Source: a virus. Taken from it: a DNA stretch of 38,996 nucleotides. The position numbers and the translations under genes are program-made. Shown here piece by piece: positions 3,324 to 25,133 of this stretch (positions are counted from its first letter, which is position 1; each line of letters opens with the position of its first letter). The notes under the pieces were generated by a model. It saw only the letters and a list, made by a program, of their open reading frames with translations. It searched no databases and had not been told where the DNA came from. The stretch lies in IMG/VR virus record IMGVR_UViG_3300025128_000125, positions 1 through 38,996 of that record; one strand, written 5' to 3'.

Positions 3324-3500
3324 ATGCAAACTTTTGCAAATATGATCGCATTAATAATGGCAATCATTAGTGTGAGCAGCATCATAGCTGCGGTTACTAA
3401 AACACCGAAAGACGATGTGTGGATTGGCAAGCTATATAAATTAATAGATTTATGTGCTTTGAATATTTACCGGGCCAAAATGAAACCAGGAGATAAATAA
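3324..3500 (+). CDS. Small single-span membrane protein
   Basis: A 58-codon gene with a clear AAGGAG ribosome site 7 bases upstream. The N-terminal 25 residues are hydrophobic (FANMIALIMAIISVSSIIAAV), predicting one membrane span, followed by a short soluble tail with several Lys and Asp. The stop codon overlaps the next ATG by one base. I do not recognise the family. Its place at the head of a run of tiny membrane proteins suggests a holin, antiholin or other membrane effector. Confidence 0.6.
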   Translation: MQTFANMIALIMAIISVSSIIAAVTKTPKDDVWIGKLYKLIDLCALNIYRAKMKPGDK

Positions 3501-4779: not shown

Positions 4780-5236
4780 CTATTGGTTATATGTGGCTAT
4801 CTTTTTATCACCGAATGTTATATCGGATGAGATCGTCCATCAATTCAAAAGCCCAAGTTTTTCTGGTATTGGGAGCTCCTCACATTATTTAACGATCGAT
4901 GAGCAAGAAAAAACCAGGCGTGACGAAATTGCTCAAGAAGTAGAAGACGCTTTAAAAGAAGCAGAACGTGAAGCCGAGAACACAACGCTTGCAAAATTTT
5001 TACGGAACCTAGAATCCAGAATTTACTCGCAGCTCTCCAGAGACATTGCAGAATCGTTATTTAACTCAGAAAGCGGTGGCACTGGTGGGACCATAGATCT
5101 CGAAGGCAATACCATAAGTTTTGTAAACGATGGTATCAACATAACATTGACAGTGATTGATTCAGATGGAAATATCACAGAAATAATAATTCCAGTGGGG
5201 ATATTTGGCGTATGTACTGGCGAGTGCGGTATTTAA
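4763..5236 (+). CDS. csgF: CsgF-like curli assembly factor
   Basis: This 157-residue protein starts with a signal peptide (about 1-21). The mature N-terminus then reads H-Q-F-K-S-P-S-F-S-G, matching the conserved CsgF N-terminal peptide F-x-N-P-x-F-G that plugs into the CsgG channel. The middle is an extended charged helix ending in a segment like the CsgF LxNFxxxIxSQIxxxL region, and the C-terminus has the beta-rich T-I-D-L-E-G-N-T-I pattern seen in CsgF. In curli systems CsgF is exported through CsgG and links the nucleator to the pore at the cell surface. The middle helix is longer than usual (157 against about 138 residues in E. coli), and the two Asn of the plug motif are Ser here. The end overlaps csgG by 25 bases. 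Confidence 0.88.
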   Translation: MKKRNNYWLYVAIFLSPNVISDEIVHQFKSPSFSGIGSSSHYLTIDEQEKTRRDEIAQEVEDALKEAEREAENTTLAKFLRNLESRIYSQLSRDIAESLFNSESGGTGGTIDLEGNTISFVNDGINITLTVIDSDGNITEIIIPVGIFGVCTGECGI

Positions 5237-6033
5237 TAGTTTTATTGCCAATATTGCATGGCTGTGCAAGTTTTGCACCTGTAGGCAATACTGGTTGTGC
5301 CAGCTTTTTACAATGTGTTGAGGAAGCAAAAATTGTGCATCCAACACATGAAAAACTAGTTAATTTTCCGCCACCCAATCAAAAAGCAGTTGTGGCCGTA
5401 TATAAGTTTCAAGATTTAACTGGCCAGCGCAAGAGCTCACAAAAAATGGCATTATTCAGCACCGCAGTTACCCAGGGAGCTGACCATTATTTAATTGATT
5501 CTTTAAGAAGCGCGGGCAAAGGTAATTGGTTTGTAGTCGTTGAACGTAATAACTTAGACGCTCTGACTCGGGAACGGCAGCTCATAAAAACTACCAGGCA
5601 ATCTTATGATGGTGAAAATGGCAACACTTTGAAACCGCTTTTATTTGCTGGCATTATAATTGAAGGCGCGATTATACAGTATGATACGAATATTGGTACT
5701 GGAGGAAACGGAGCTCGATACTTAGGCATTGGATCAAATAACCAGTGGCGCAAAGACGAAATCACTGTTTCATTGCGAGCTGTGTTGGTGCAAACGGGCG
5801 AAGTCATATTAAATACTATGGTTTCAAAAACAATATTAAGCGCTGGCGTGAGCAGAGATGTGTTTCGTTTTATAGAAATGGGCACTGAGCTTGTAGAAAT
5901 CGAAACAGGTTATAGTGAAAATGAAGCCATGGGATATGCGACAAAAGTGGCAATAGAAGAATCCGTGTATAATTTAATTAAAATAGGTATTGACGAAAAA
6001 TTGTGGGACATTAGTTATGAAGAAAATACTTAG
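5212..6033 (+). CDS. csgG: CsgG curli secretion channel (outer-membrane lipoprotein)
   Basis: This 273-residue protein matches CsgG along nearly its whole length. It has a lipoprotein signal with Cys18 (L-H-G-C, His at -2 being atypical), the P-P-P-N-Q-K-A-V-V-A-V-Y start of the periplasmic domain, F-Q-D-L-T-G-Q, F-S-T-A-V, V-E-R-N-N-L, I-I-I-E-G-A-I-I-x-Y, G-G-x-G-A-R-Y-L-G-I-G, S-K-T-I-L-S, V-F-R-F-I and I-D-E-K-L-W-D. CsgG forms a nonameric outer-membrane pore that secretes unfolded curlin. In the constriction loop the Phe (F82, E. coli F56) is kept, but the adjacent Asn is Leu81, the loop is one residue longer and no Tyr is present. The gene overlaps csgF upstream and the curlin gene downstream. 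Confidence 0.96.
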   Translation: MYWRVRYLIVLLPILHGCASFAPVGNTGCASFLQCVEEAKIVHPTHEKLVNFPPPNQKAVVAVYKFQDLTGQRKSSQKMALFSTAVTQGADHYLIDSLRSAGKGNWFVVVERNNLDALTRERQLIKTTRQSYDGENGNTLKPLLFAGIIIEGAIIQYDTNIGTGGNGARYLGIGSNNQWRKDEITVSLRAVLVQTGEVILNTMVSKTILSAGVSRDVFRFIEMGTELVEIETGYSENEAMGYATKVAIEESVYNLIKIGIDEKLWDISYEENT

Positions 6034-6700
6034 TTTAATTTTGTTGTTTGCTGTATCTACAGTTTACGCTGGCAATAATGATATTTATATCACTCAGTCT
6101 GGAACCGGGTTGACTATGAATATAGATCAGATCGGTGGCACAAACAAAGTTGGTACATCACAAGCGAGAGCAACATTTACAGGAACATCAATGACTGTCG
6201 ATATTGACCAAGTGGGTGACAGTAACACCATGGCTGCTTCTGTGGCCCAAGGTAATAGCACCAGTTTTACAGCTACAACAACGGGTGATAGTAATACAAC
6301 CACATTGGCATTGGGTGCGAGTGGAGATGTAGCAAACACTGATTTTGATTATGCGGCCACTGGTGATTCAAACACAGTGACATTCACACAAGGTGCGGCG
6401 GCAACCGCAACCGCTGGTAATCAAGACATCGTAATTGCCGGGAACTCAAACGATCTCAATGCAACATGTGAAGTGGTTGGCTGCATAAATAATTGGGATG
6501 TAGATGGCGATTCTAATGACATTGATACGACACAAACAGGAAACTCTGACCATTCAATCACAGCTGAGATCGACGGATCCACGAACAACATAGACATCGA
6601 TCAAACAAATAGCACAGGCAGTGTTTCAGACGTTGTGGTAATTACATCGACCACCAGTAATGCAACGATAGACATAGATCAGTGCACAAGTGGCTGCTAA
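6017..6700 (+). CDS. Curlin-like repeat protein 1 (CsgA/CsgB type)
   Basis: The ATG at 6017 overlaps csgG by 17 bases and begins a clean signal peptide (MKKILSLILLFAVSTVYA, cut after A18). An upstream in-frame ATG lacks this. The 209-residue mature protein is made of curlin-like strands: I-D-Q-I-G-G-T-N, I-D-Q-V-G-D-S-N, T-G-D-S-N-T, I-D-T-T-Q-T-G-N-S, I-D-I-D-Q. These follow the S/I-x-Q-x-G-x-x-N logic of amyloid curlin, alternating with Thr/Ala-rich spacers. It carries four cysteines in two close pairs (C151/C156 and C223/C227), which E. coli CsgA lacks. It should be exported through the neighbouring CsgG and polymerise outside the cell. Whether it is the major subunit or the nucleator cannot be decided. 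Confidence 0.85.
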   Translation: MKKILSLILLFAVSTVYAGNNDIYITQSGTGLTMNIDQIGGTNKVGTSQARATFTGTSMTVDIDQVGDSNTMAASVAQGNSTSFTATTTGDSNTTTLALGASGDVANTDFDYAATGDSNTVTFTQGAAATATAGNQDIVIAGNSNDLNATCEVVGCINNWDVDGDSNDIDTTQTGNSDHSITAEIDGSTNNIDIDQTNSTGSVSDVVVITSTTSNATIDIDQCTSGC

Positions 6701-7773
6701 TCCTAGCGTCACTGGCTTTCAATGTTTATGCACAAGTAGGCGAGATATCTGAGCTCAGAGGCAATGGAGAAGTTTTACGAGCAGATGAAACGGATAAACT
6801 TCTCGCAAGAACTTCTTTGGACATTCTTAGTTATGACGATGTTCGGACTGGCAATGGTAGGCTTGGCATTACGTTTCTCGATTCTTCTGTCATTCGCCTT
6901 ACTGAGCACTCTAAAATCATTATTGATGAATATATCTATGATGCTAACCCGTCTAAAAGCAAAATGGCACTCAAGATGGCCAGCGGAACAGCTCGTTTTA
7001 TTACTGGCGCCCTGGGAAGAATAGACAAAGAAAACATCTCCATTGAGACACCAAGCGCTTCAATTTTTATTAGAGGCACTGACTTTACAACCACAGTCGA
7101 TGAGCTCGGCCGCTCACTTATTATTTTGTTACCCAATCCAGACGGCAGCTCATCCGGATCCATTAGTGTGGAAACGATAGCCGGGACCGAGGTTTTAAAT
7201 CAACCCTTCCAGGCAACGATGGTCAGTGTTGCAGAAAGCCCACCGACAAAAGCAGTTACATTAGTCAACATGTCTTTGAATTTTATAGACAATCTTTTAA
7301 TTGTTAATCCACCGGATGAAGTGGAGCGAGCTGTCGAAGATCAAAGCAGCTCATCCAGCAATGTCTTGGACGCTGATTTTTTAGAAGAGAATGACCTAGA
7401 CGACGACAGCGGTTTGTCGGAAGATGATCTGCAAGAGGAAATAACCAGGCTTGATATTGATTTACTGGCCGTCGATTTTCTACAAGATCTACTTGAAATC
7501 ATTGAAGATTTAGGTAAAAAAGAACAAGACGCTAGTGAGATTGATGGCGTCAGAATAGAAGGAATCATTGCTGGATTTGACCAAGATGCACAAGTATATA
7601 CGTTTGTGGAAGGCGAAATCTTAACTTTGGTTAGGCAAGTGGAAAACACCATTGATTTAGAATTAGATAAATCCGGTGGATATAATATACAGATACTTTC
7701 TGCTGGTAAGCAGATAAACATAACCACCAATGGAGGCGGTGAAAATGAAATTATTATCAATCAGTCTGATTAG
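6682..7773 (+). CDS. FecR-domain periplasmic protein
   Basis: I chose the GTG at 6682 because it gives a typical signal peptide (MHKWLLILASLAFNVYA) and overlaps the curlin gene by 19 bases. The 363-residue product has a FecR-type domain at about 45-150: V-R-T-G-N-G-R-L-G-I, L-D-S-S-V-I-R-L, I-x-T-P-S-A-S-I-F-I-R-G-T-D-F. A beta segment follows, then a very acidic stretch (about 215-280). The last 13 residues, ending I-I-I-N-Q-S-D, resemble a curlin strand. FecR domains sense or transmit envelope signals, and such proteins often sit beside CHASE2-cyclase genes in bacterial genomes. Here it is wedged between two curlin genes, suggesting it monitors or anchors the amyloid. No membrane span other than the signal peptide is visible. 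Confidence 0.85.
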   Translation: MHKWLLILASLAFNVYAQVGEISELRGNGEVLRADETDKLLARTSLDILSYDDVRTGNGRLGITFLDSSVIRLTEHSKIIIDEYIYDANPSKSKMALKMASGTARFITGALGRIDKENISIETPSASIFIRGTDFTTTVDELGRSLIILLPNPDGSSSGSISVETIAGTEVLNQPFQATMVSVAESPPTKAVTLVNMSLNFIDNLLIVNPPDEVERAVEDQSSSSSNVLDADFLEENDLDDDSGLSEDDLQEEITRLDIDLLAVDFLQDLLEIIEDLGKKEQDASEIDGVRIEGIIAGFDQDAQVYTFVEGEILTLVRQVENTIDLELDKSGGYNIQILSAGKQINITTNGGGENEIIINQSD

Positions 7774-8458
7774 TATATTTTCTTTTGTTGCTGTTGCGGG
7801 CGACAACAATGTTGAGGTCAGAACGAAAGGCAGCTCATCGCTAATACATATCGATCAAATTGGCACCAGTAATACTGCAAGAGTTTGGTGCGGCTTATCG
7901 CAAGGCACTTACACCACACATAATTGCAGCAATGCCACGATTGATATTGACCAGGAAGGAACGAGCAACACGGCAAGAGCTTACAGCCAAGTAGCCAACC
8001 ACACAGGAAATGAATACAAGATTGACCAGGACGGCAACGATAACTTTGGTTATATCGATGCAGACGATGATGGAAATGATATGGATGTTGTGCAGAATGG
8101 CAACAACAACGATGCAGAAATCTACATGCAAGGCGATAATAACGTGTATTCCATAACTCAAACTGGCGATGATAAAGAAGGCGAGATCCGTGCTTTTGGC
8201 GACAGCTCCAATTTTTCTATCAATCAATCCGGAACGGGAGAACATTACGCCAAGATTTATGCAAGCACTTCGGCTGATAACAACGATGCCACAATCACAC
8301 AAACAGGCAGCGGGGATCATTACATGAGATTAAATTTCTACACAGATGATTACGATGTCACCGCAAGTCAATCGGGAACAACCAATAAATCAATCACAGT
8401 AAATTATAACTGCACCAATAATTGCAATAAAACATTGACGATTAATCAAGGTGATTAG
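7745..8458 (+). CDS. Curlin-like repeat protein 2 (CsgA/CsgB type)
   Basis: The ATG at 7745 overlaps the FecR gene by 29 bases and gives a signal peptide (MKLLSISLISIFSFVAVA, cut after A18). The 219-residue mature part has clear curlin strands: I-D-Q-I-G-T-S-N-T-A-R, I-D-Q-E-G-T-S-N-T-A-R, I-D-Q-D-G-N-D-N, V-V-Q-N-G-N-N-N-D-A, I-T-Q-T-G-D-D, I-N-Q-S-G-T-G, I-T-Q-T-G-S-G, ending T-I-N-Q-G-D. It is closer to canonical curlin than protein 1. It has cysteine pairs C49/C61 and C223/C227. The middle is rich in Asp, so the fibre could be strongly acidic or bind cations. It should be a CsgG substrate. It overlaps the cyclase gene by 8 bases. Confidence 0.88.
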   Translation: MKLLSISLISIFSFVAVAGDNNVEVRTKGSSSLIHIDQIGTSNTARVWCGLSQGTYTTHNCSNATIDIDQEGTSNTARAYSQVANHTGNEYKIDQDGNDNFGYIDADDDGNDMDVVQNGNNNDAEIYMQGDNNVYSITQTGDDKEGEIRAFGDSSNFSINQSGTGEHYAKIYASTSADNNDATITQTGSGDHYMRLNFYTDDYDVTASQSGTTNKSITVNYNCTNNCNKTLTINQGD

Positions 8459-10217
8459 AACCATACAACTAGGTTTTTTGCTCATTTTGTTAGGAGCTCC
8501 TTTAGTTCAACAATGGGCTCCATTAGAAATACTAAAACTCAAAACATTTGATACATTGGTTCCAGAACAAAAACCCTCTGGATATTTCTCAATACTAAAC
8601 ATTACGGAAGACGACGTAGAAAAAGAAGGCGGTTATCCGTTTCCACGAAACCGCCTGGCAAAAATTCAAAATGAATTATTAGATCAAGGCGCCTTGGGAG
8701 TTGGCTGGGTAATCTCTTTTCCACAGAATGACAGATTTGGTGGTGACTCAGAGTTTGCAAAAAGCCTAGCAGCTGCACCAAGCGTATTGGCTACATTTGA
8801 AAACGACAATGGCGAATACCCAATGACAACCGGAACAGTGATTTTGGGCCAAGACCATGGCGGTTTCAAAGCAAAAGGCGTGGTGCAGAACATACCGATA
8901 TTAAGAGAAGCAGCATACCAGGGCATTGCGGTAGCACCCACAGAAGTAGATCAGCTGGTAAGGCGTATGCCATTGTTGCTCAGAACACCAGATGGCTGGG
9001 TGAGCGCATACGGAACCGAAGTCTTAAAAGTCCTTGCTGGTGCCGATACTTATGTAATTAAAACCTCCGATGCTGGAATCCAAGAGGTCCGAGTTAAAGG
9101 CTTGCCTCCTGTCAAAACAGACACCCTGGGAAGAAAATGGATTAGCTGGGTTGATACGCCACAATTTTCATTAAATGATATTAGACAGACTGAGCTCATC
9201 AAAGGTCGTTTTATTTTTGTTGGTGTAACGGCCAAAGGCATCATGCCACAGGTTGCGACACCAGCTGGCCTATTGGAACCGCATAAAATACAAGCTGCGC
9301 TTTCTGAGTCAATTTTAATTCAAGACAGCCCAATTATCCCAGACTATGCTTTGTTGGCAGAAATAGCACTGTTTTTGCTCTCAGTAAGCTGTATTTGGCT
9401 CGTATTAAACGTATTTGGCATTACCCTTGGTCTAGTATCTTATGGGCTGATAAACGCTCTAATCGCTTATTTTGGCTACCAAACCATACAAAAAGGCCTT
9501 TTAATTGATGTTACCTGGACATTAACTGCTGGTTTTATCGTAGGTTTTGTCGCTTTTTATCTAAATTTCAGAAAACAATATAAACTGAGACAACAGATCA
9601 AAAAACAATTTGAGCATTATTTGGATCCAAGACAAGTTAAGCAGCTCCAAAAAAATCCAGATCTGTTGAAGCTGGGCGGAGAAAAAAGATACTGCACTTA
9701 TCTTTTTACAGATCTTCGTGGTTTTACAGCTCTCAGTGAGAAATTATCTCCAGAAGAAGTAACCGAAATAATGAATAAAACTTTGACAGTCCAGGTAAAC
9801 GCTGTGCAAAAACTAGGAGGAATGACCGACAAATTTATTGGAGATGCTGGGATGTTTATTTTTGGAGCTCCTCTGGATCTCGAAGAACATGAAACCAAAG
9901 CTGTTCAAGCGGCCATAGACATACAAAAAGGAATAGACGAGCTCAACAAAACATTATCCAATCCAGTCCAAGTGGGCGTCGGCTGTCAATCCGGTAATGC
10001 TGTCATAGGTAACATGGGATCTGACACTCGATTTGATTATTCAGCAATCGGTGATCCAGTTAATACTGCGGCGAGATTAGAAAGCGCAACAAAAGACGTA
10101 GGTGTAGATATATTGATTGGTGAGAACACTGCAAAGAATTGCAAACTTGTATTAAAATCACTAGAATCGATTAAAGTAAAAGGTAAAAAGGATGAGCTGC
10201 CAATATGGACAGTATAA
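8451..10217 (+). CDS. CHASE2-domain membrane adenylate cyclase
   Basis: The product is 588 residues with a GTG start. An N-terminal span (about 3-20) is followed by a periplasmic CHASE2 sensor (about 30-290), three membrane spans (about 299-319, 322-342, 352-372) and a class III nucleotide cyclase domain (about 408-588). Metal-binding Asp are D421 (F-T-D-L-R-G-F-T) and D465 (I-G-D-A-G). K461 and S531 occupy the adenine-recognition positions, with Ser where CyaB-type adenylate cyclases have Thr. N538 and R542 stabilise the transition state, so all catalytic positions look intact. It should make cAMP from ATP in the cytoplasm under control of a periplasmic cue, plausibly the FecR protein two genes upstream. 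It is the last gene of the curli set and overlaps the next gene by 13 bases. Confidence 0.93.
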   Translation: MIRTIQLGFLLILLGAPLVQQWAPLEILKLKTFDTLVPEQKPSGYFSILNITEDDVEKEGGYPFPRNRLAKIQNELLDQGALGVGWVISFPQNDRFGGDSEFAKSLAAAPSVLATFENDNGEYPMTTGTVILGQDHGGFKAKGVVQNIPILREAAYQGIAVAPTEVDQLVRRMPLLLRTPDGWVSAYGTEVLKVLAGADTYVIKTSDAGIQEVRVKGLPPVKTDTLGRKWISWVDTPQFSLNDIRQTELIKGRFIFVGVTAKGIMPQVATPAGLLEPHKIQAALSESILIQDSPIIPDYALLAEIALFLLSVSCIWLVLNVFGITLGLVSYGLINALIAYFGYQTIQKGLLIDVTWTLTAGFIVGFVAFYLNFRKQYKLRQQIKKQFEHYLDPRQVKQLQKNPDLLKLGGEKRYCTYLFTDLRGFTALSEKLSPEEVTEIMNKTLTVQVNAVQKLGGMTDKFIGDAGMFIFGAPLDLEEHETKAVQAAIDIQKGIDELNKTLSNPVQVGVGCQSGNAVIGNMGSDTRFDYSAIGDPVNTAARLESATKDVGVDILIGENTAKNCKLVLKSLESIKVKGKKDELPIWTV

Positions 10218-19197: not shown

Positions 19198-20115
19198 ATG
19201 GCTATTTCAAGAGCACAACTAGCGAAAGAGCTTGAGCCTGGGCTAAATGCACTTTTTGGAATGTCCTACGACTCTTATGACAGAGAATATGAAGATATTT
19301 TCGTCACAGAAGATTCAAGTAGAGCATTTGAAGAAGAGGTGTTGATAACAGGATTCGGTTCTGCACCCGTTAAATCTGAGGGTCAAGGAGTTGTCTTCGA
19401 CAACGCATCTGAAAGTTACAGCGCAAGATATACGCATGATACGATTGCACTTGCATTTGCACTTACAGAAGAGGCGGTAGAGGATAATTTATACGATTCC
19501 TTAGGCAAACGATATGTTAAAGCATTGGCCAAATCTATGGCTAATACTAAAGAAACCAAAGGAGCCGACGTGTTGAACAACGCTTTCTCATCCAGTTTTA
19601 CTGGAGGCGATGGCGTATCACTCATTAACACTGCTCACCCACTTTCCGGTGGAGGAACAGCTGCTAATAGAGCGACAACTATGGCGGATCTCAATGAGGC
19701 TTCCTTAGAAGATGCTTTAATTGACATTTCAACCTTTACAGACGACAGAGGATTAACTGTTTCTGTTCAAGCGGAAAAAATGATTATTCCGCCGCAACTC
19801 GTTTTTGTTGCAGACAGAATCTTAAACTCTGCGAATAGATCTGGAACAGCTGATAATGACATCAACGCGATTAGAAACACTGGAGTATTACCAGGTGGCT
19901 ACGCGGTCAATCATTATCTTTCTGATCCGGATGCTTTCTTCCTCCTTACTTCTGTCAATGGAGCGGGCGAAGGTCTAAAAATGTTCCAAAGATCTCCAAT
20001 GGAGACTTCTATGGAACCAGACTTTTCAACTGGCAACATTAGATATAAGGCTAGAGAAAGATATTCCTTCGGTTTCTCTGATTGGAGAGGAATCTATGGA
20101 TCTCAAGGTGCATAA
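19198..20115 (+). CDS. Major capsid protein (HK97 fold, Mu gpT-like)
   Basis: This 305-residue protein has a strong ribosome site (AAGGAG at 19186-19191). The N-terminal helix A-I-S-R-A-Q-L-A-K-E-L-E-P-G-L is followed by the F-x-E-E-V-L-I-T-G-F-G region, a long spine-type helix (R-Y-V-K-A-L-A-K-S-M-A-N-T-K-E-T) and a P-domain-like strand region (I-I-P-P-Q-L-V-F-V-A-D). The C-terminus is R-Y-K-A-R-E-R-Y-S-F-G-F-S-D-W-R-G-I-Y-G, as in Mu gpT-like coat proteins. It builds the icosahedral shell. A strong terminator follows, as expected for a highly expressed coat gene. Confidence 0.9.
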   Translation: MAISRAQLAKELEPGLNALFGMSYDSYDREYEDIFVTEDSSRAFEEEVLITGFGSAPVKSEGQGVVFDNASESYSARYTHDTIALAFALTEEAVEDNLYDSLGKRYVKALAKSMANTKETKGADVLNNAFSSSFTGGDGVSLINTAHPLSGGGTAANRATTMADLNEASLEDALIDISTFTDDRGLTVSVQAEKMIIPPQLVFVADRILNSANRSGTADNDINAIRNTGVLPGGYAVNHYLSDPDAFFLLTSVNGAGEGLKMFQRSPMETSMEPDFSTGNIRYKARERYSFGFSDWRGIYGSQGA

Positions 20116-20153
20116 TTTGAAGTCGTAATACACTTTATTACTCAGTATTACAA

Positions 20154-20181
20154 AAGAGGGCCCTTACGGGCCCTTTTTTTT
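20154..20181 (+). terminator. Rho-independent terminator behind the capsid gene
   Basis: A perfect 7-bp stem AGGGCCC/GGGCCCT (20157-20163 and 20168-20174) with loop TTAC is followed by eight T (20174-20181). An A run precedes the stem, so it can extend further. It lies 41 bases after the capsid stop and should end the head transcript. Confidence 0.95.
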
Positions 20182-20194
20182 GGCCTGTAAATAA

Positions 20195-20257
20195 TTGCAA
20201 AATAATGTAAATAAATAATTGCATATAATTGCAAACTCTGGCATATTACAAATATGT
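20195..20257 (+). promoter_or_regulatory. Promoter/operator copy 1 (paired TTGCA boxes plus TATTAC)
   Basis: TTGCA occurs at 20195, 20219 and 20229. The last two start exactly 10 bases apart, and TATTAC follows 9 bases after the final TTGCAA (20244-20249), then ATATG. The same arrangement recurs at 20698-20735 upstream of the next transcription unit. Two sites on one face of the helix suggest an operator or a phage-specific promoter. From the first box of the pair, TTGCAT-19-TATTAC is also a weak sigma70-like promoter. The ribosome site AGGGGG (20281-20286) follows. Confidence 0.6.
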
Positions 20258-20291
20258 TCTTTTTAATTAATAATAAATATAGGGGGATCCC

Positions 20292-20618
20292 ATGGAACGA
20301 ATGATGTATATAACCTGTAACACTGACAATGAAGTCAATACCTACACCAAGACTGTTAGCAAGGGTGCAAACTTTTACGAAAGATTTGATCCTGTTGCCG
20401 AATGGAACGGAATGGCAGAAAGGCTTGGCAAAGATCCAGATGAGGAAACTTTAATCACGTTGGTTGGTATTTACAATGGTGGTGGCGCTTATACTTGGGA
20501 GCACATACCGATTGATGAGATCAAGCCTGGTGATCCGTTGAGGTTGTCAAGAGTAACCCACAGACCATCTGTGATGGGCATGACACCAATCAATCCAGAT
20601 GGTGAAAACCATGAGTGA
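20292..20618 (+). CDS. Small protein in its own transcription unit
   Basis: This 108-residue soluble protein has a strong ribosome site and stands alone between two terminators and two similar promoters. It contains the pattern F-D-P-V-A-E-W-N-G-M-A-E-R-L-G-K-D-P and a Thr/Gly-rich turn. The family is not recognised. Independent control by duplicated promoter elements is unusual in this otherwise polycistronic genome and hints at a regulatory or early role. Confidence 0.72.
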   Translation: MERMMYITCNTDNEVNTYTKTVSKGANFYERFDPVAEWNGMAERLGKDPDEETLITLVGIYNGGGAYTWEHIPIDEIKPGDPLRLSRVTHRPSVMGMTPINPDGENHE

Positions 20619-20635
20619 GCTGCACACCAAAAAAG

Positions 20636-20660
20636 AAAGGGCCTTTCGGGGCCCTTTTTT
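20636..20660 (+). terminator. Rho-independent terminator behind the lone gene
   Basis: An 8-bp stem AAAGGGCC/GGCCCTTT (20636-20643 and 20650-20657) encloses a TTTCGG loop (effectively a TTCG tetraloop closed by a T-G pair) and is followed by T at 20655-20660. It begins 17 bases after the stop codon. Confidence 0.92.
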
Positions 20661-20697
20661 ACGTCAAAAAAAAGATGAAAATAATGTATATAATTAG

Positions 20698-20735
20698 TTG
20701 CACATAGTTGCAATCTTTAGTATATTAAATATGTG
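20698..20735 (+). promoter_or_regulatory. Promoter/operator copy 2 (paired TTGCA boxes plus TATTAA)
   Basis: TTGCA at 20698 and 20708 (10 bases apart) is followed 9 bases after the final TTGCAA by TATTAA (20723-20728) and ATATG. This repeats copy 1 with the same spacing. Upstream, AATAATGTA also recurs in both regions, and TTTAATTAA follows both. It should drive the clamp-like gene and those after it. Confidence 0.6.
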
Positions 20736-20769
20736 AGACATTTAATTAACAAACCAATAGGAGAAAAAA

Positions 20770-21414
20770 ATGGCTGAAATAAGAAATATCAATGCCGAGA
20801 TGCTAGGCCGGGCAACAGCTTTTGCTGCCAAGGCCACAGACGTAAGATTCTACTTGCATGGTGTTCATATCGAAAGGAACCCAGCTGGCGGAGTCTACAT
20901 CATAGCGACAAATGGACACATATTGTGTGTCTATAATGATCCCGATGCTGAACCAAGTGCGGATTTCAAAGAGGTGACATTGAGCCTCAAAAATCCCACC
21001 CCAGGTTCACGGGCCAATCACCCATACTTCAATTATTTGAAAAAATCCAGTGAGCGTATTCACATAGTAAAGTCCGATTACAAAATGGGTGGGGATGATG
21101 TTTGGCTTGTAAATCGTGAGGAGATCACGGCCTTTGACTGCCACTACCCAGATTGGAGGAGAGTGGTTAATCCCGGTTTGGAGATCACCGAAACAATCGG
21201 TTTTGATCCCAGATACTTGGCGATGATTAAAAACTTCATGTTGAAAAGTGAGGGTGGCAAATATATGGGCATCAACCTTGTTGGTGGGACCACCAGGGGA
21301 GCAAGCATTTGGGAGTCAGATCACGGGCTTCTCTTGATTATGCCAATGGAGCCAAAAACCAGAGACACAAACGAATTATTAATAATTGATCCAGAGATCG
21401 AGGAGGTAGCGTAA
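20770..21414 (+). CDS. Two-domain sliding-clamp-like protein (DnaN domains II-III)
   Basis: This 214-residue protein resembles the second half of the bacterial beta clamp. D-V-R-F-Y-L-H-G-V-H-I-E corresponds to the clamp D-V-R-Y-Y-L-N-G motif, and A-T-N-G-H-I-L-C-V to A-T-D-G-H-R-L-A. Y-P-D-W-R-R-V-V matches F-P-D-Y-R-R-V-L, and the end L-L-I-M-P-M resembles the clamp C-terminus V-V-M-P-M. Domain I is missing, so a ring would need three copies, as in T4 gp45 or PCNA. It should tether a polymerase or other DNA enzyme to DNA. It has its own promoter and an AGGAGAA ribosome site. I am fairly sure of the homology, less of the oligomer. Confidence 0.75.
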   Translation: MAEIRNINAEMLGRATAFAAKATDVRFYLHGVHIERNPAGGVYIIATNGHILCVYNDPDAEPSADFKEVTLSLKNPTPGSRANHPYFNYLKKSSERIHIVKSDYKMGGDDVWLVNREEITAFDCHYPDWRRVVNPGLEITETIGFDPRYLAMIKNFMLKSEGGKYMGINLVGGTTRGASIWESDHGLLLIMPMEPKTRDTNELLIIDPEIEEVA

Positions 21415-21611
21415 TGGAATATGTAATTTATAAGTGTAAAGGATATGAACCATTAGGAGGCGAGTGGTATGACTTTTCGGAATTACCGCAAGAACGTAAC
21501 TACATCAAATTTGGAGTTATGAACAGCGGGACCAAGAGAAAAGCAATCAACAATGCCAAAAGAATAATCGGTGATAAAAAAGCCAAAATCATAGTTAAGG
21601 AGGTAGCGTAA
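21414..21611 (+). CDS. Small basic protein of unknown function
   Basis: This 65-residue protein overlaps its neighbours by one base on each side and shares the GGAGGTAGCGTAATG junction with the preceding gene. It is rich in Lys, Tyr and Gly with a K-R-K-A-I-N-N-A-K-R-I-I helix. The family is not recognised. Confidence 0.65.
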   Translation: MEYVIYKCKGYEPLGGEWYDFSELPQERNYIKFGVMNSGTKRKAINNAKRIIGDKKAKIIVKEVA

Positions 21612-21811
21612 TGGCTGAAATAAGATTAACAGTTGATGAAATATTTGAATTGACAGAAATGGTAAGTATTAGAATGGAATCAGATAGAGATTTAATACCT
21701 TTATATGAAAAACTTGCTAAACATTTACCAAAACCTAAATCCTATACAAGTGCAGATTTAGATTATGAAATTCCTTTATATGAACCAAAAATAATCAAGG
21801 AGAAAAGCTAA
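21611..21811 (+). CDS. Small helical protein of unknown function
   Basis: This 66-residue protein has an excellent GGAGG site inside the end of the previous gene and overlaps the next by one base. Residues 1-40 look helical (V-D-E-I-F-E-L-T-E-M-V), and the tail is rich in Pro, Tyr and Lys. It begins M-A-E-I-R like the clamp-like protein two genes upstream, but the rest differs. No function can be assigned. Confidence 0.62.
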   Translation: MAEIRLTVDEIFELTEMVSIRMESDRDLIPLYEKLAKHLPKPKSYTSADLDYEIPLYEPKIIKEKS

Positions 21812-22065
21812 TGGCACTAGAAACTAAAATTAAGTCAATCATTGATCCACTCATAGAAGAAGTCAGAGAAACGTGTTTCGTGGAGGGTGCCAACCCTTCC
21901 GATGCTGAGTGCTTTGGTTTGATTATGAGCAAATACATGGTATGGAATTGCGAAAATATTGTTGGAGCAACACTAGATGCTCTTGAAGATTCCAATTACC
22001 ATAGTCTCAATACGGCTTTTGAAAAGACCTACAACGATTGGGCAAACCATAGGGATGTTGCATAA
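21811..22065 (+). CDS. Small acidic protein of unknown function
   Basis: This 84-residue helical acidic protein has three cysteines (C22, C34, C47) and a W-N-C-E-N core. An AAGGAG ribosome site lies 9 bases upstream within the previous gene. The family is not recognised. It may be a small regulator of host or phage nucleic-acid metabolism given the neighbours, but this is a guess by position. Confidence 0.62.
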   Translation: MALETKIKSIIDPLIEEVRETCFVEGANPSDAECFGLIMSKYMVWNCENIVGATLDALEDSNYHSLNTAFEKTYNDWANHRDVA

Positions 22066-22066
22066 T

Positions 22067-22576
22067 ATGACTGAAATAAACAAAATATTTGTCGATATGG
22101 ATGGAGTCTTAGCCGACTTTGAAAAAGGTATTGAGCTGCCGATGTTTCTCAACGGCCCGTTTACCAACAAAGACGACTACGACTCCCGGAAGAAAGAATT
22201 ATCCGATAAAGGATTGTTTGCAGCTTTGCCACCGATGCCCGGCATGGAGCTCCTGGTAAATCATTTGAAGAATACCGGGATCCCTTGGGAGATCCTAACG
22301 GCCTCTGGCGCAATCAACAGATCTGTGGTTGTCAAAGACAAGATCACTTGGGTAAACAAATACATACATCCAAAGCCGATAGTCACCTCTACATTAAGAG
22401 GCGCAGACAAGGCGGTTTATGCCAGGCCATCTCACGTCCTCATCGATGATAGAAAATCAAACATCGATGCCTGGACCGGAGCTGGTGGTATCGGAATCCT
22501 ACATACTACAGCTGAGAGCACAATAGAGCAGCTCGAATTACTCGGTATAAGCTCTGTTGCACAAATGACCGCCTAG
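22067..22576 (+). CDS. HAD-family 5'-nucleotidase-like phosphatase
   Basis: I chose the ATG at 22067, one base after the previous stop; a longer frame would overlap the upstream gene. The 169-residue protein has the HAD motif I D10-M-D12-G-V-L-A-D-F, a motif II L-T-A-S-G, a lysine before the last motif, and motif IV L-I-D-D-R. The size fits the C-type cap family of 5'(3')-deoxyribonucleotidases. These dephosphorylate nucleoside monophosphates and would adjust nucleotide pools during infection. It is the last gene of the small promoter-driven unit. Confidence 0.82.
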   Translation: MTEINKIFVDMDGVLADFEKGIELPMFLNGPFTNKDDYDSRKKELSDKGLFAALPPMPGMELLVNHLKNTGIPWEILTASGAINRSVVVKDKITWVNKYIHPKPIVTSTLRGADKAVYARPSHVLIDDRKSNIDAWTGAGGIGILHTTAESTIEQLELLGISSVAQMTA

Positions 22577-22651: not shown

Positions 22652-23362
22652 ATGACTACACATTTCACTTCGGGTGTTACCAATGTTGGGACTGATACAA
22701 CACTAGGTAAAATAAAAATGCCCGCACCACACAAGTATCATTCATACTTCAATGATTTCGATACTTATCTCGCGTCCGATTGGACAATCACAACAACTGA
22801 GGACGGAACTGGGTCTGCTACAGAGGCACTAGCCGATGGCGATGGTGGTTTACTACTCATTACCAATGCAGCTGGCGACAATGACCATGACTTTTTCCAA
22901 CTGGTTAAAGAAGGTTTTAAATACGAAACTGGCAAACAGTTGGCTTTCAATATGAGGTTTAAAACCAGTGATGCTACGCAATCAGACATTGTAGCTGGTT
23001 TACAACTGACTGACACGACGCCTTTGGATGTTACAGATGGTATTTTCTTTTTGAAGTCTGACGGCGGAACAACTGTTACTTTCATCGTTGAAAAAGACAG
23101 CACGCAATCTACTTTGGATTTGCCAAACGCTTTGGCCGACGATACTTTTATGACTATAGGTTTTGTTTATAGTCCTAAAGATCAGAAGTTTCATGTCTTC
23201 CAAAACAATGTTTTGGCGGGCACTGTAGTAAGCACTAATGCTCCAGATAATGAAGAGATGACTCTTTCATTTGGCATACAAAATGGTGCTGCTGCTGCTA
23301 AAACTTTGACAGTCGATTATGTTGGAGCCATGAAAGAGCGTACAGCAGTTACAGAGCTGTAA
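22652..23362 (+). CDS. Probable virion surface protein, jelly-roll/lectin-like
   Basis: The start at 22652 is set by a strong AAGGAGGG ribosome site (22637-22644). The 236-residue protein is beta-rich with Asp/Thr/Gly loops. Its layout (D-F-D-T-Y, T-I-T-T-T-E-D-G, F-N-M-R-F, V-A-G-L-Q-L, F-M-T-I-G-F-V, F-H-V-F-Q-N-N) is reminiscent of concanavalin/laminin-G sandwiches used for binding sugars or decorating capsids. No catalytic motif is visible. It opens the second structural operon. The fold guess is from pattern only. Confidence 0.65.
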   Translation: MTTHFTSGVTNVGTDTTLGKIKMPAPHKYHSYFNDFDTYLASDWTITTTEDGTGSATEALADGDGGLLLITNAAGDNDHDFFQLVKEGFKYETGKQLAFNMRFKTSDATQSDIVAGLQLTDTTPLDVTDGIFFLKSDGGTTVTFIVEKDSTQSTLDLPNALADDTFMTIGFVYSPKDQKFHVFQNNVLAGTVVSTNAPDNEEMTLSFGIQNGAAAAKTLTVDYVGAMKERTAVTEL

Positions 23363-24833: not shown

Positions 24834-25133
24834 ATGAAAAAATCCAAATATATGGCTGGTGGCGGTGCAATGAAAGGCACAAAATACAAAGCCAAAGGTG
24901 GTGGGATGAAAACCACAAAATACATGGCCAAAGGTGGCGCGGCTGCTAAAGCAGAAAGATCTGCGACTGGATTTGGCAACATGCCCAAATCTGTGATGTC
25001 TGCACTCACAGGTCAAGGAACTAGAAAAGCTGGTTCTACGCCTATGTTGAAAGGTGCAAAAGGTATGGCCAAAGGTGGCGCCATGAAAGGCACAAAATAC
25101 AAAGCCAAAGGCGGAGGCTTGTACGGAAGATAA
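24834..25133 (+). CDS. Gly/Lys/Met repeat protein
   Basis: This 99-residue protein consists of repeats of the type K-Y-M-A-G-G-G-A-M-K-G-T-K-Y-K-A-K-G-G-G and K-T-T-K-Y-M-A-K-G-G, with a non-repeat middle (residues 38-75). It ends G-G-L-Y-G-R. Similar Gly/Lys/Met-rich tails occur in marine phage head regions. It is likely disordered and could bind nucleic acid. Its repeats are nearly identical at the DNA level (see the repeat entry). Confidence 0.7.
   Translation: MKKSKYMAGGGAMKGTKYKAKGGGMKTTKYMAKGGAAAKAERSATGFGNMPKSVMSALTGQGTRKAGSTPMLKGAKGMAKGGAMKGTKYKAKGGGLYGR
24870..25111 (+). repeat. 29-bp exact direct repeat inside the Gly/Lys/Met gene
   Basis: The same 29 bases (ATGAAAGGCACA...CCAAAGG) occur at 24870-24898 and 25083-25111, in frame, coding for M-K-G-T-K-Y-K-A-K-G. 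The identity at codon level suggests recent internal duplication or gene conversion. Confidence 0.85.

Follow-up and report, generated by a model that had tools for sequence, protein, structure and literature searches.

A unit made of a terminator and a putative promoter occurs twice in the window (the whole 38,996-nt stretch of DNA analyzed here, from an uncultivated marine phage, IMG/VR record IMGVR_UViG_3300025128_000125, positions 1 to 38,996), and we propose that each copy acts as a transcription boundary, at which an intrinsic terminator closes the upstream transcript and a sigma70-type promoter restarts transcription. Terminator 1 would close transcription of the capsid gene, and promoters P1 and P2 would serve an accessory island, a moron-like insertion that separates the capsid gene from the decoration gene. 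An operator role would fall to a second TTGCA box in the promoter spacer. Some 20 kb away, the same promoter-operator, P3, would drive a further accessory island, and the two islands would thereby form one regulon. The likeliest regulator would be a 57-69-aa protein encoded divergently from P3. We consider this explanation as a whole likely, and its core, a terminator plus a sigma70-type promoter for the island, very likely. Nearly all knowledge of such phages comes from metagenomes, and the timing of accessory versus virion genes in viruses without their own RNA polymerase is poorly understood.

Duplicated Unit of a Terminator and a Putative Promoter

Self-BLASTN of the window returned a single non-coding duplicate, a 107-nt repeat in which terminator and promoter are joined (20152-20257 versus 20631-20734, 74.8%, E=2e-10); the remaining duplicates are repeats within coding genes. 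This bears out the first-pass annotation, which had described the unit as the only clear duplicated regulatory sequence of the window. Copy 1 sits 3′ of the capsid gene and copy 2 sits 3′ of a 108-aa ORF, with a spacing of 479-481 nt between the copies and an AT-rich leader after each terminator. The elements are as follows.

20152..20181, + strand: intrinsic terminator 1 (12-bp hairpin at 20152-20179, -18.7 kcal/mol, GGGCCCTTACGGGCCC plus T8)
20199..20273, + strand: promoter P1 (-35 TTGCA at 20219-20223, second TTGCA at 20229-20233, -10 CATATT at 20242-20247)
20633..20660, + strand: intrinsic terminator 2 (hairpin of -16.2 kcal/mol, GGGCCTTTCGGGGCCC plus T6)
20678..20752, + strand: promoter P2 (-35 TTGCA at 20698-20702, second TTGCA at 20708-20712, -10 TATATT at 20721-20726)

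Both copies have the GC-rich hairpin and T run of an intrinsic (Rho-independent) terminator, and no other strong GC-core terminator of this kind occurs on the + strand of the window; the two strong terminators claimed from initial inspection are thus present. The same arrangement had also been said to follow each of them, and a 75-nt direct repeat (20199-20273 and 20678-20752, 76%) does lie in the same register behind both; the leaders agree at 46 of 60 bases, more than in any of 100 surrogates, which reach 35 at most. Two details of that description need correction: the gap between the second TTGCA and TATTA is ten bases rather than nine, and the ATATG listed as part of the shared arrangement is 2 nt off register between the copies. 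Likewise, the term "lone gene" fits copy 1, which is followed by one 108-aa ORF (20292-20618), but not copy 2, which is followed by several genes spanning 20770-22576.

P1, P2, and P3 have a common layout, with TTGCAN as the -35 element, 16-17 nt, and a YATATT-type -10 element before a gene; in both P1 and P2 the spacer between the -35 hexamer and the -10 is 17 nt. The hexamers, a spacing within 16-18 nt, and the gene start behind them conform to sigma70-type promoter architecture, with a moderate match to consensus. A generic sigma70/terminator scan of the window gave promoter-like matches at background level and ranked P1 and P2 no higher. When 26 distinct P3 sites of other contigs, none from the window, were used for training, the resulting model scored P2 at 56.0 bits and P1 at 26.2 bits and nothing else in the window above -5 bits, with a maximum of -11.0 bits on 20 order-2 surrogates. 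Leave-one-genome-out models placed P1, P2, and P3 of five contigs at 48-62 bits (in the window, 48.6 bits for P1 and 62.4 bits for P2), compared with a surrogate maximum of 12.2; the variant P1 of relative G003 scored 16-21 bits. In other contigs, the sites returned by the position models lie solely at capsid-adjacent and regulator-adjacent positions. Random occurrence of the motif inside genes, which the first-pass annotation had named as evidence against its reading, was not observed: in the window, the position models return P1 and P2 and no further site.

Other TTGCA pairs were considered and rejected. Minus-strand TTGCA-N5-TTGCA at 3325 and 10130, found also in relatives, is missing the flanking motif, and a minus-strand pair in the relative G001 (oriented position 48847) has no -10; a tRNA was looked for at the latter site and not found.

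Association of the Putative Promoter with an Accessory Island

The genes around and behind the two units are the following.

19198..20115, + strand: major capsid protein gene (phrog_371 major head protein, E=5.5e-24)
20292..20618, + strand: 108-aa ORF, first island gene (full-length matches of 93-100% identity in 12 related contigs)
20770..21414, + strand: 214-aa protein, first gene behind P2, with partial similarity to the DNA polymerase III beta clamp
21414..22576, + strand: remaining island, comprising 65-, 66-, and 84-aa proteins without assigned function and an NT5C-type 5′-nucleotidase
22652..23362, + strand: decoration-like structural gene, which lies directly behind the capsid gene in island-less relatives

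The 108-aa gene, for which PHROG, Pfam, and NCBIfam searches gave no match, is bracketed on both sides by terminator-promoter units. The 214-aa protein matches phrog_3007 (E=4.5e-23), the processivity factor family phrog_947 (E=8.5e-6), and dnaN (4e-4), and the 5′-nucleotidase matches NT5C with E=2.4e-8.

Megablast of the window against deposited phages gave no nucleotide match. Both copies of the unit are kept in contigs with a near-identical capsid gene, and two P2 alleles differ around the -10 with both boxes and the 17-nt spacing retained. More distant relatives carry a single unit about 101-108 nt behind the capsid gene, followed by different cargo with an NT5C-type nucleotidase gene last, and island content varies among relatives. 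In island-less relatives, the gene order is capsid, terminator, structural gene, with no TTGCA pair. The capsid-to-decoration gap is 125-150 nt in three loci (L017, L020, and L028) versus 2540 nt in the window, and spans 1338-2540 nt where the island is present. In three contigs chosen through presence of the small candidate regulator protein (G008, G009, and G015), the capsid gene is 90-93% identical and P1 lies behind it. In nine capsid relatives that lack this protein, the parts read contain no intergenic motif, and the two motif hits read from those nine fall inside 659- and 716-codon frames.

Sequence sufficed for this comparison in 73 distinct loci: the promoter is present in 7 of 7 loci with the nucleotidase island and in 0 of 66 without it (Fisher test, p=6e-10, a value that overstates strength and independence because the compared loci are related). 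That the presence of the promoter tracks the small-gene island supports the proposal, made from the window alone, that a promoter or operator lets the small genes be transcribed apart from the structural ones. The island also has the hallmarks of a moron, being present in some relatives and absent at the same junction in others, and having its own putative promoter and terminator, as the 7/7 versus 0/66 count and the flanking of the 108-aa gene on both sides indicate. With promoters of their own, the island genes could therefore differ from the virion genes in the timing or level of their expression. Use of P1, P2, and P3 by the host RNA polymerase is suggested by analogy with HTVC027P, a cultured relative that has no polymerase gene and depends on that of its host (PMC12753301).

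One capsid relative (93%) with P1 is a contig binned as Candidatus Pelagibacter, and binning of phage contigs is weak evidence for host.

A Second Slot and a Candidate Regulator

The closest long relative, G001 (capsid 100% identical), has a third copy, P3, situated 19.6 kb 3′ of P1. The window ends about 60 nt past its last gene, short of the position of the regulator and P3 in G001, and neither is seen in this genome for that reason. Divergently from P3, about 850 nt away, a conserved 57-69-aa protein is encoded, and this distance holds in nearly every contig that is long enough; the protein was found in 49 contigs, and 26 distinct adjoining P3 sequences were extracted. The cargo of P3 includes homologues of island genes of the window, namely of the 65-aa protein (57%), the 84-aa protein (40%), and the 214-aa clamp-like protein (35%, behind P3 in L151 and L153).

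The small protein's own promoter reads TTGTAT-N17-TAGAAT and contains a weaker box pair, TTGTA-N6-TGYA; in the register of the second box, 15 of 25 forms have a clean TGYA and 21 have TG. In G003, the capsid-side promoter and the small-protein promoter have 14 of 15 bases in common over the box pair (TTGCATATTTGTGTA / TTGTATATTTGTGTA). This weaker pair suggests that the protein regulates its own expression, probably by repression.

Sequence searches of the small protein against Pfam, PHROGs, NCBIfam, and PDB gave no family, and none emerged from deposited phages and bacterial genomes. Two AlphaFold2 models and two Foldseek searches yielded no fold match, and hhalign to ribbon-helix-helix sequences and controls indicated no family. 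CopG/Arc-type ribbon-helix-helix repressors are very small proteins with phased TG(C/T)A boxes overlapping the -35. The candidate resembles them in its very small size, in the phased boxes that overlap the -35 at its putative sites, and in the apparent box pair of its own promoter, but differs in lacking a profile or structural match and in a predicted monomer of three helices with no strand (pLDDT 77, pTM 0.40) in place of a beta-alpha-alpha fold, and a ribbon-helix-helix reading would rest on pattern only. Given the absence of a family match and the three-helix model, assignment of the regulator is the weakest step of our explanation, and we offer the small protein only tentatively as the ligand of the second box. 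It is similarly conceivable, if somewhat doubtful, that an undescribed small phage protein family controls a phased-TTGCA promoter-operator at two slots in this marine phage lineage, with the unit serving as a standard docking site through which incoming genes join one regulon.

An 80-84-aa conserved partner gene with weak FAN1-HTH similarity overlaps the candidate regulator in G001, G002, and G003 (in G001, oriented 40756-41007, minus strand; L112).

The Second TTGCA Box

The second TTGCA lies 10 bp, or one helical turn, downstream of the first, within the -35/-10 spacer, at a position where sigma70 alone needs nothing. In an alignment of the 26 distinct P3 sites, both TTGCA boxes are nearly invariant and the -10 is conserved; the second box carries 2.0, 2.0, 2.0, 1.5, and 2.0 bits, whereas some spacer columns carry 0.5-0.6. 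Because it is as conserved as the -35 and is unneeded by sigma70, the second TTGCA points to an operator, an assignment that we hold to be reasonably probable. A box between the -35 and the -10 is in the usual position for a repressor. A weaker TGTA or TATA also occurs 10 bp 5′ of the first box in copy 2 and in many relatives, and the sites therefore resemble up to three phased boxes.

The tandem TTGCA could instead serve a host OmpR/PhoB-class response regulator as its operator, coupling island expression to the state of the host. This class binds 10-11-bp direct repeats overlapping the -35, and a one-turn direct repeat in that position would suit class II activation. The motif, however, tracks a phage protein and P3; the post-capsid promoter is missing from capsid relatives, among them the cultured SAR11 phage HTVC023P; and the TTGCA repeat seems unlike the Pho box, which is of the TGTCA type and 11 bp. 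We therefore regard a host response regulator as unlikely. Slightly harder to maintain is the proposal that these are plain constitutive host sigma70 promoters and terminators with no dedicated regulator, the second TTGCA being a by-product of common descent. Strong unregulated promoters often serve early phage genes, and the 16-17-nt spacing is enough for sigma70. Against this proposal, the second box is conserved like the -35 amid spacer columns of low information, and it persists in P1, P2, and P3 despite diverged surroundings.

Highly variable cargo between conserved units, and the occurrence of some gene families in both slots, would be expected if the repeated unit were kept mainly as a recombination linker for cargo swaps between slots, with transcription secondary. 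This is improbable, as most relatives have a single unit per slot and conservation is focused on the -35, the second box, and the -10 instead of forming uniform homology. An iteron-like replication origin or partition site, which short phased repeats in AT-rich DNA close to a clamp-like gene might suggest, is very improbable given just two or three boxes, each time placed 16-17 nt ahead of a -10 and immediately ahead of the start of a gene, and sites at several places per genome.

Comparison with Known Systems

Regulation through an operator-bearing sigma70-type promoter would have a partial parallel in the middle promoters of phage T4, which join a host sigma70 -10 with a phage-specific MotA box around -30. 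The sites described here likewise combine a sigma70-type -10 with an apparently phage-specific box; unlike those of T4, they have a pair of boxes spaced by one turn, the first of which is at -35, and the ORFs read gave no sign of a MotA or AsiA homologue, short of a dedicated search.

As in the morons of tailed phages, small variable genes lie between conserved virion genes with their own putative promoter and terminator; orfs 8-10 of SPP1 form such a moron segment within late genes, bracketed by transcription signals (PMC6316719). What appears new relative to known morons is that one promoter-operator is common to two insertion slots with overlapping cargo; in addition, and unlike morons, it shows linkage to a small conserved protein, and one island contains the unit twice.

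The window capsid protein is 61.6% identical to that of Pelagibacter phage HTVC023P over 99% of the protein, and this relatedness of the capsid (59-62%) would ally the window with the HTVC023P-type pelagiphages (HTVC023P and HTVC027P). Further likenesses are the mosaic temporal classes of HTVC027P (PMC12753301) and the curli/FecR/cyclase gene set reported for the group (PMC9599517). Unlike the lineage of the window, HTVC023P has neither the post-capsid TTGCA-pair promoter nor the small protein, and the searched text of the genome paper on this group is silent on promoters and terminators (PMC9599517).

The island-marking promoter offers a sequence handle for host-takeover or counter-defence genes among uncharacterised small ORFs, and the linked small candidate regulator offers a testable protein.

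A Predicted Pseudoknot in the Capsid 3′ UTR

A second RNA-level element lies in the same region, behind the capsid gene.

20120..20151, + strand: predicted H-type RNA pseudoknot in the capsid 3′ UTR, just before terminator 1 and outside the duplication
20120-20123 and 20132-20135, + strand: stem 1 (AAGT / ACTT)
20125-20131 and 20145-20151, + strand: stem 2 (GTAATAC / GTATTAC)

A scan of the collection in which stem 1 (GAACG...CGTTT) and the loop (TTACTCAA) were fixed and stem 2 was left free matched at least 120 stretches. Among the matches listed, stem 2 could be judged in 13 distinct forms and is complementary in all of them, 12 pairing at 7/7 positions and one at 6/7, and the printed contexts lie behind an apparent capsid gene end and ahead of a terminator-like hairpin. 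Across 18 pseudoknot forms, standard pairs fill 179 of 180 pair cells, and each stem-2 pair, as well as 2 of the 4 stem-1 pairs, is found in two to four Watson-Crick types; since most of these forms were picked by a search demanding complementarity, the scan with free stem 2 is the only unbiased test of pairing. A pseudoknot with a conserved TTACTCA loop is also found just past the capsid stop codon in L008, L009, L023, L039, L064, and L080. An Rfam search of the pseudoknot gave no family match. These data suggest that a covarying pseudoknot, placed past the capsid stop codon and ahead of the terminator, is widespread in marine viral contigs, and we would guess that it protects the 3′ end of the capsid mRNA.

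In a distant relative, a known RNA element, Mu-gpT-DE (RF03012), lies right after the capsid terminator (L054, 2048-2100). Look-alikes behind the capsid gene in many relatives (60-70% identical capsid) fell below the Rfam threshold, and an Rfam scan of the window gave no match, Mu-gpT-DE included.

Additional Observations

Near the end of G001 (L112, about 2350-2850), a GC-rich stretch with repeated GCTGC/GCAGC words is followed by an isolated TTGCA pair without a -10; lying near a possible small terminase subunit gene, this stretch could be a packaging or origin region. In the window, genes for CsgG, curlin-repeat proteins, FecR, and a CHASE2 adenylate/guanylate cyclase stand in a row at 5212-10217; these curli-FecR-cyclase genes are not new, because they are already described in PMC9599517. 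A small gene at 24834-25133 is built of KGGAMKGTKYKAKGG repeats, which self-BLASTN detects at 24861-25117.
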